From Syntrophomonadaceae bacterium (GTDB lineage: Bacteria; Bacillota; Dethiobacteria; DTU022): DNA of 5,282 nt. The notes beneath the pieces are model-generated. The model was not told the DNA's origin and did no database searches. It saw only the letters and a program-made list of their open reading frames with translations. How positions within the stretch are numbered: the stretch's first letter is position 1; each line of letters opens with the position of its first letter. Below, one piece after another: positions 3,661-5,282 of the stretch. The stretch covers positions 1 through 5,282 of the forward strand of contig SKPU01000025.1 of NCBI GenBank assembly GCA_007119335.1. The letters are read 5' to 3'. Made by a program: the position numbers and the translations under genes.

Positions 3661-5282
3661 TTAGTGGGCAGCCAACTCCCGGCGGCTCTTGAGTAACCTC
3701 TGCCAGGATTCTTCGCTTAGAGGTCGGTTAAAGCTGCGGAACTTAGCTAGTTTAAAGCCGTGTTCATTAGCCCAGTACCTGGTCTGCAAAATAGTTTCGA
3801 GGTTCACTCCGGATGATCCAATGCTGTAATGTTTATATTCCTGTTCCAAGGCAAGCATCATAGTTTCAGCCATACAAGCATAAGATAAACCTTTTTCAAA
3901 GCCAAAATCCCAACCGAAAGAAGGTAGCCCGGGCACTTCGACCACTCCACCGTCTATAACGAGAACATCGGGTCGGGCGTGATCAACTTCCTCGCTGACA
4001 TTGGCCGGGCGGGAAATATCACAAACCACAGCACCCTGCTTAAGATTTCCGGCATGAATGACCCTGCCCGTAGCGCTGGTTGCGCTAATAACCACATCAG
4101 CCCGGGCCAGGACAGCATCTATATCTGTGGAAAATTCTATCAACCCCATCCTTTGCCCTTCACCCTCAGCAAAAGATTCAAATTCTTCCATTGGAGCATC
4201 CGGTGAGGGCAGTTCAGAACAATCGGCAAGCAGGTGTCCCATGCTGCCCGGTTTCAAAGGTCTGCCCTGCTGCAGAAGCGCTGACTGATAACGATATATT
4301 TCAGCAGCAACCAGGTGTAATTTCTCGCTGGCAGTTTTATTGTTCGGGTTGCCAATCAGGATCAGCCGGGGCACGGTTTCAGAAAGCAAAAGCGATATAC
4401 CCTTCCCAATGGAGCCTGCTGCCCCGACAATTCCGGCAGTAATTTGTGAACGATCCATTTCCAGTTTATCAGTGGAAGTATTGACTGCATCAACGGCAGA
4501 AACCACGGTGTAACTGTTGCCGGTGGTAATCGGCACCCCTTCATTTTTGAGGTAAAGTCCTCCCATGGATGCTACTGCGGTAAAAGCGCCGAGGCCCACG
4601 ATGCGCGCACCCCGTTCACGGGCCATTTGCACAGCTGCTTTTAGTTCAGTCATAGCCTGTTTGCGGGGCATTTGCACAAACTCATCAGTAGTTCTGGGCA
4701 AACCTATAAATTCACCGTAAGCAGTTCGCCCGGTTTTAGAATATATTTTTGTCTTTCCGGCTACAAAAGGCCCAATCATGTCACCAAACCGGCCGGTCAG
4801 TTCAGCCAATTCATCTTCACTGAAAGCAAGCAGGCTTTTATCAAACTGGTGGTAACTTTCCAGGTCAAGGGCATGGACGAGGAAGGCAAAACGCCCTTCA
4901 TCCGGTTCATTATCGGGTTCAACGTCTTCTACCAGGTAAGGGGAAAACTCCGTAAACTCACCTCCGCTATCTGGCCGGATCAGGTAAGACAAAAACCGTG
5001 CTGTATTGCTTTCATTAAGGACCTCTAGCATTGAATCTAATCCTTCCAGGGCCTCTCGGCACTGAGCTTCATTTATATTTAAAGGTGGTTCAATCCGGAT
5101 CACTTCATTGCCGTTAAGAGTAGGCGCAACCCGGACTTTTTCCACATTTAAGAGATAAGAAGAAATGATCGGGGTAAGCAGTTCCTGTTCAGCCATAACC
5201 CCGAGCAGGCTCCCGGGAAATTTTCCGCGATCCATGTTAAATTCCAGCCCCAGCATCAGGCCCCGCCCTCGCACTGTCTTAA
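3661..5282 (-). CDS. Class III aminotransferase fused to an acyl-ACP-reductase-like domain (5' end outside the window)
   Basis: The frame is open to the right edge, so only the C-terminal 540 or so residues are seen; the first start-type codon, GTG at 5274-5272, is an internal Val in a KTVRGRGLMLGLEF context. Numbering from the Lys at 5280: residues 3-90 are the C-terminal domain of a class III PLP aminotransferase (VRGRGLMLGLEF, then VIRIEPPLNI), and the catalytic Lys must lie upstream. After a linker (about 91-127), residues 128-512 resemble cyanobacterial long-chain acyl-ACP reductase: VGLGAFTAV (228-236), TTGNSYT (252-258), GxxGxxG (G286, G289, G292), VVISATS (396-402), DGG (443-445), ACMAETMML with C469, and HGFK near the end. 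C469 aligns with the AAR acyl-accepting cysteine (Cys294 in Synechococcus). A segment at about 332-377 is extra. Likely roles are acyl-thioester reduction plus transamination; the substrate is unknown. A short-chain or shikimate dehydrogenase label is less likely because AAR-specific blocks are present. Confidence 0.8.
   Translation of the reverse strand, partial: KTVRGRGLMLGLEFNMDRGKFPGSLLGVMAEQELLTPIISSYLLNVEKVRVAPTLNGNEVIRIEPPLNINEAQCREALEGLDSMLEVLNESNTARFLSYLIRPDSGGEFTEFSPYLVEDVEPDNEPDEGRFAFLVHALDLESYHQFDKSLLAFSEDELAELTGRFGDMIGPFVAGKTKIYSKTGRTAYGEFIGLPRTTDEFVQMPRKQAMTELKAAVQMARERGARIVGLGAFTAVASMGGLYLKNEGVPITTGNSYTVVSAVDAVNTSTDKLEMDRSQITAGIVGAAGSIGKGISLLLSETVPRLILIGNPNNKTASEKLHLVAAEIYRYQSALLQQGRPLKPGSMGHLLADCSELPSPDAPMEEFESFAEGEGQRMGLIEFSTDIDAVLARADVVISATSATGRVIHAGNLKQGAVVCDISRPANVSEEVDHARPDVLVIDGGVVEVPGLPSFGWDFGFEKGLSYACMAETMMLALEQEYKHYSIGSSGVNLETILQTRYWANEHGFKLAKFRSFNRPLSEESWQRLLKSRRELAAH

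Follow-up and report, generated by a model that had tools for sequence, protein, structure and literature searches.

A transaminase–thioester reductase fusion in Syntrophomonadaceae and its relationship to a stand-alone reductase of a core Bacillota locus

Results

The window that we analyzed (5,282 nucleotides) is the whole of contig C236, from a Syntrophomonadaceae genome that is 58% complete. On its minus strand, a frame of 539 amino acids (3661..5280) runs without a stop through the end of the window, which is also the end of the contig. This frame is the C-terminal part of a gene that fuses a class III transaminase (TA) to a thioester reductase of the acyl-ACP reductase (AAR) type (TR), and the gene starts on C220, a second contig from this genome. 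The end of the TA domain (residues 1–91, 5008..5280, minus strand) was delimited with domain models and by alignment to the fusion P0196 of Thermaerobacter subterraneus. It is followed by a linker that is poorly conserved in the alignment (residues 92–128, 4897..5007, minus strand) and then, from residue 129 onward, by the TR domain (3664..4896, minus strand), as supported by models, structures, and alignment. The TR domain contains a GxxGxxG nucleotide-binding motif (GAAGSIG, residues 286–292, 4405..4425, minus strand), with three glycines that do not vary among 32 aligned fusions, and Cys469 (codon 3874..3876, minus strand), which is invariant in the same fusions and aligns with C815 of the T. 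subterraneus fusion. Structure matches and alignment also place a stretch of about 57 residues (326–382, 4135..4305, minus strand) between the halves of the Rossmann domain. This stretch is missing or shorter in PigE, in cyanobacterial AAR, and in stand-alone TRs, and it is missing from another fusion (L043) as well. According to Pfam, the other genes in the window encode ProRS, 5-formyltetrahydrofolate cyclo-ligase, a TetR regulator, and a phosphoesterase. (In NCBIfam, the TetR-family regulator, at 930–1562, scores highest with FadR, a fatty acid regulator, at 60.9 bits against a cut-off of 200.)

Residues 1–84 match positions 337–402 of the 403 positions of Aminotran_3 (E = 0.0021, 17.3 bits, Pfam cut-off 30.5); this match is weak because the window holds only the last part of the domain. 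The model for cyanobacterial AAR, TIGR04058, matches with E = 2.4e-21, and its best stretch is residues 386–510, with a score (76.4 bits) that is below the cut-off for membership (449.7). The downstream part also matches the structure of PigE (4ppm, E = 1.6e-26) and the AAR crystal structures 6jzq, 6jzu, and 6jzz (E = 6.5e-13 to 1.7e-11). The match to 6jzq (E = 6.5e-13) covers both halves of the domain (residues 153–299 and 387–510) and brings the cysteines into register (ACMAET with ACFAEA). The initial annotation had placed the start of an AAR-like domain at residue 128, and this boundary was right, with the AAR-type reductase running from residue 129. The top Pfam match for the window protein is to Shikimate_DH (30 bits, cut-off 24.3). 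We rejected an identity as a shikimate/quinate dehydrogenase because the models and structures of PigE and AAR score better and span both halves. The PigE model NF053554, whose domain order is reversed, gives 175.8 bits for the window protein and 564.7 bits for a full-length relative (L006), both below the cut-off of 850. With an N-terminal TA that has the PLP lysine and a C-terminal TR that has GxxGxxG and the cysteine, all in one chain, the protein is a TA-TR fusion.

We located the start of the fusion by searching the same genome with L006. Residues 1–334 of L006 match C220, residues 335–872 match the window's contig, and the ends of the two contigs share an exact overlap of 8 bases. C220 supplies the start along with the PLP lysine motif LAKALGGG (the lysine is residue 265 of the L082 frame). 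The frame that precedes the fusion on C220 has an HFLEH motif, and relatives have the same type of neighbor. We take this frame to be an M16 peptidase; Pfam assigns M16 to the corresponding gene in the relative L011. Across the 32 aligned fusions, Lys252, Gly620/623/626, and Cys803 (L006 numbering) are all invariant, and we take their catalytic roles from published homologues. The predicted structure of L006 has a mean pLDDT of 89.5, and a structural comparison with this full-length model ranks the PigE transaminase half and putrescine aminotransferase highest. (Transaminases dominated the list of matches.)

Among 91 TR-bearing proteins, TA is followed by TR in one frame in 70, and TR is alone in 21. 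(We kept five other loci out of this set: L002, L003, L015, and L046 are cut by contig ends, and L044 has a broken frame.) The uninterrupted frame noticed initially is therefore borne out, both by the open 539 residues and by the 70 single-frame relatives, and these relatives together with the join to C220 exclude separate genes that were merged by a frameshift or an assembly error. In the one-contig genome G436 (L147:5904–8443), TA and TR stand next to each other but occupy two frames, of 603 and 555 amino acids, which is either a split gene or a sequencing error.

In a tree of the TR domain from these 91 proteins, all 70 fusions fall to the same side of a single branch (support 100). This is a quick tree with a midpoint root and several long branches of unsure placement, and it was built from these proteins only, with no TamH, PigE, or cyanobacterial AAR sequence. 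The placement is compatible with a single origin of the fusions but does not demonstrate it. Two fusions, from records labeled Desulfovibrio sp. (L020) and Actinobacteria (L033), group with those of Syntrophomonadaceae and Peptococcaceae, which reflects either transfer or mis-binned contigs.

Published relatives

The architecture of the window protein has already been published, for PtTamH (PMC9594044), for KecF (PMC6498172), and for four fusions termed TsFusion, TmFusion, TfFusion, and PP_2782, of which three are from thermophiles (Thermaerobacter/Thermincola; PMC10829540). So, the statement in the initial annotation that no enzyme of this architecture had been characterized does not hold. 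P0196 is 51% identical to the window protein and 55% identical to the full-length L006 by alignment. Its host and the hosts of the other two thermophile fusions are presumably Bacillota. TsFusion and its kin have TA and then an AAR-type TR in one chain, as in the window, with the cysteine aligned: Cys815 of P0196, which aligns with Cys469, is the residue named for TsFusion in PMC10829540, where it was mapped onto C294 of AAR. That report describes transaminase activity of TsFusion on aliphatic aldehydes and a preference for long or aliphatic aldehydes in all four fusions. The assays it describes are of the transaminase half, and it deduces the AAR function from structure, which for the fusions nearest to the window is a point against assuming a reductase role.

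The whole reaction has been demonstrated for PtTamH from Pseudoalteromonas tunicata, which by its published description has the domain order, the cysteine, and the GxxGxxG motif of the window protein. With NADH and not with NADPH, PtTamH converts a C12 acid bound to PtTamA to the C12 amine, and in the absence of glutamate the aldehyde is detected (PMC9594044). It refuses C12-CoA, and it accepts aldehydes from C7 to C14, with an optimum at C12 (PMC9594044). The gene for PtTamH lies in a tambjamine cluster with its own AMP-ligase–ACP partner, PtTamA; in contrast, among the neighboring genes of the window's fusion and its relatives we found no tambjamine cluster and no counterpart of PtTamA adjoining the fusion. 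KecF from Pseudomonas koreensis is also like the window protein, with an aminotransferase and then a COG5322 reductase in one chain, and it belongs to a koreenceine polyketide cluster; both of its activities are described as predictions (PMC6498172). PigE from Serratia (4ppm, NF053554) has the same two kinds of domain in the opposite order, and it is reported to reduce a thioester and then to aminate the product (PMC8341465). Cyanobacterial AAR (TIGR04058, 6jzq) shares the fold family, the cysteine, and GxxGxxG, but is a single-domain enzyme. The earlier suggestion that the aldehyde is aminated next finds support in the published accounts of PtTamH (PMC9594044) and PigE (PMC8341465).

Spread and gene neighborhoods of the fusions

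At E ≤ 0.001, two protein searches yielded 2939 and 1890 clusters (about 8000 candidates were scored in each); we considered the best 120 from each search, and the remaining clusters may include plain transaminases. In the window's order, the TR part of the fusion is present in 37 of 71 genomes, namely 35 of the 43 genomes of family f1 and two of the three of f4. In two other f1 genomes (G019 and G021), only the transaminase part was detected, truncated at the edge of a contig. (G035 has a 68-residue piece that we assign to the end of its own fusion.) Across the window's phylum, 230 of the 398 sampled genomes match this TR, which does not fit a picture of AAR-type reductases as mainly cyanobacterial enzymes.

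In the window's clade, the fusion's neighbors are M16 peptidases, ProRS, 5-formyltetrahydrofolate cyclo-ligase, the TetR regulator, and the phosphoesterase. These are housekeeping genes and therefore give no pathway context. Elsewhere, additional domains are found in the same chain: two Chloroflexi/Anaerolineae records have AMP-ligase, ACP, TA, and TR (L035:4878–9491 and L042:706–5373) and a Lysobacterales record has TA, TR, and AMP-ligase (L060:6911–11209), with chain lengths of 1433–1556 amino acids. In Pseudomonas and Chromobacterium (L047–L055, L057), the TA-TR gene is found with varying sets of genes for an AMP-ligase, a desaturase, an acetyltransferase, an ABC transporter, a LolA-like protein, and a ketosynthase. 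These loci look like a cluster for an amine-bearing lipid, with the Pfam domains of the group read on L052. The fused or adjoining AMP-ligase and ACP genes favor a fatty acyl-ACP as the substrate, and by analogy this may also hold for the window's enzyme.

Fusions and stand-alone reductases

We searched the 71 genomes of the window's order with a profile of the stand-alone TR and then read the active sites. A stand-alone TR with the cysteine was detected in none of the 37 genomes that have the fusion versus 25 of the 34 others (P = 5e-12, Fisher exact test, which ignores relatedness). Among the 37, 30 have no match to a stand-alone TR, six have a leftover TR that lacks the cysteine, and in one (G012) the TR is cut before the cysteine. 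The residue in place of the cysteine varies (T in G015, W in G017, P in G020 and G022, M in G026, and D in G046). Also, the two genomes with only the transaminase part of the fusion have a stand-alone TR without the cysteine (P in G019, S in G021). We assign the piece in G019 (contig C13, with proline at the place of the cysteine) to the leftover TRs because it is 67% identical to them and is followed by GreA. The leftover TRs without cysteine, from genomes with the fusion or its TA part, are at L133:2788–3861, L134:2322–3386, L135:3706–4761, and L136:2849–3952, with further ones at L137:2636–3736, L131:2691–3755, and L138:2567–3631 and one that is cut by a contig end at L212:684–1298. The uncut leftovers of the order have open frames over 351–374 residues, so they look like proteins that are kept without the catalytic residue rather than wrecked genes.

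The families that contain fusions also contain genomes that show the alternative state. The TR with its cysteine is kept in the fusion-less genomes G018 (f1) and G047 (f4), and within f4, G045 has no stand-alone TR and G046 has one without the cysteine. In seven genomes of the order, 64–86% complete, we detected no fusion and no catalytic TR, and two of these (G024 and G025, 66% and 86% complete) have a TR without the cysteine. All 35 genomes that are at least 90% complete with at most 5% contamination match the TR profile, whether in a fusion or in a stand-alone protein.

From the scan of 398 genomes of the phylum, we took 42 in which the TR match falls within a long frame. (This set includes G046 and excludes the other fusion-bearing genomes of the window's order.) TA and TR are in one frame in 41 of the 42, the other being G436, with its different frames. 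Of these 42 genomes, 35 have no stand-alone TR match, six have one without the cysteine, and one (G251) has both the fusion and a stand-alone TR that keeps it. The six are G046; G080, G198, and G276 (all f17); G179 (f39); and G438 (f99, a weak remnant with 39 bits). In the fusion-less genomes of the phylum, the cysteine is present in 37/37 TRs read, where the better-scoring rows were chosen, which favors intact TRs. Together with the 25 from the order, this gives 62/62, with G024 and G025 as the exceptions; the count for the order is free of any choice by score.

The core locus

The stand-alone TR is part of a core Bacillota locus, Dus-c1-c13-TR-GreA-LysRS. In two f107 genomes (G280 and G416, loci L150 and L151), the fusion occupies the TR's own slot, and in other lineages c1, with or without c13, adjoins the fusion. 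In particular, c1 precedes the stand-alone TR and, in these other lineages, the fusion; it does so in the near relatives L120 and L122, unlike in the window's clade. A search of the window's genome (58% complete) found neither c1 nor c13.

c1 is a small protein of the helix-turn-helix type whose C-terminal half is conserved (L029:6414–6980, L074:6534–7061). c13, which adjoins TR or the fusion (L074:7066–7968, L126:4704–5615, L119:4483–5337), is found in 289 of the 398 sampled genomes of the phylum and, where it is named, is annotated as "quinate 5-dehydrogenase" or as hypothetical. Its predicted fold may be that of AAR; nine c13 sequences have no invariant cysteine and none has GxxGxxG, and two of the nine have no cysteine at all. 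We found no report of the displacement of TR by the fusion in the literature that we searched, and the core locus and its link to the fusion are apparently unreported.

Discussion

We propose that the fusion converts fatty acyl thioesters, via the aldehyde, to primary amines and that it likely replaced the core stand-alone reductase (a probability of roughly 0.7). We read the domain content, domain order, and catalytic residues from the fusion itself and take the reaction steps from homologues. By analogy, Cys469 would accept the acyl group from a carrier, most likely acyl-ACP. NADH or NADPH bound at GxxGxxG would then reduce the acyl-enzyme and release the aldehyde, and the PLP site, with its lysine encoded on C220, would aminate the aldehyde with a donor such as glutamate. 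As the fusion and a catalytic stand-alone TR are never found in the same genome of the order, the fusion has probably assumed the role of the core reductase. Several observations speak against the proposal: PtTamH refuses C12-CoA, no PtTamA counterpart adjoins the window's gene, the neighbors in the clade are housekeeping genes, c1 and c13 were not found in the window's incomplete genome, G251 has a fusion beside a TR with its cysteine, and G024 and G025 have TRs that lack the cysteine although no fusion was detected in them.

The substrate might instead be a different acyl thioester, either short or polar, or the transaminase might run in reverse, from amine to aldehyde. The TA half does resemble putrescine and acetylornithine transaminases, but the relatives whose assays are described favor aliphatic aldehydes (C7–C14 for PtTamH, and likewise the four fusions), and relatives bear acyl-activating and ACP domains, so we consider this unlikely. 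It also seems improbable that the fusion belongs to a dedicated natural-product pathway, in which TR would free a fatty or polyketide chain and the amine would then cyclize or join another piece. The genes for PtTamH, KecF, and PigE are in such clusters (PMC9594044, PMC6498172, PMC8341465), antiSMASH is reported to find NRP/PKS-type clusters in the genomes of the three thermophiles, with a prodiginine-type alkaloid as the likely product (PMC10829540), and the Pseudomonas fusions adjoin AMP-ligase, desaturase, acetyltransferase, ABC transporter, LolA-like, and ketosynthase genes. However, the neighbors in the window's clade are housekeeping genes (M16, ProRS, cyclo-ligase, TetR, and phosphoesterase), and the gene, which 35 of the family's 43 genomes carry, resembles a core gene more than part of an optional cluster.

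A slightly more plausible objection, which we still doubt, is that the complementarity of the fusion and TR is due to shared ancestry only: one lineage could have acquired the fusion and, independently, lost the stand-alone gene. Indeed, of the 37 genomes of the order that have the fusion, 35 belong to one family, the counts ignore relatedness, and G251 holds both the fusion and a TR with its cysteine. Yet the pattern recurs in f1 (versus G018), f4, f17, f39, and, with a weak remnant, f99, and the fusion is in the TR slot in two f107 genomes and beside c1, with or without c13, elsewhere. The recurrence in f1, f4, f17, f39, and f107 argues for several displacement events. More tentatively, and at somewhat less than even odds, we suggest that the core TR was displaced several times by a TA-TR fusion across the anaerobic Bacillota, with the fusion in the TR slot (G280, G416) or elsewhere; that the original TR either disappeared from the genome or turned into a pseudo-enzyme without its cysteine; and that the aldehyde step was thereby rewired to an amine, with long-chain amines in ordinary metabolism.

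The window's enzyme is of an already known kind, so the fusion alone is no surprise; the new clue is its link to an unexplained core locus. The near exclusion of the fusion and a catalytic TR ties TsFusion, which can be assayed, to this locus, so the function of the locus becomes testable. If the proposal is true, then some anaerobes would make long-chain amines routinely, and such amines would not be confined to antibiotics.
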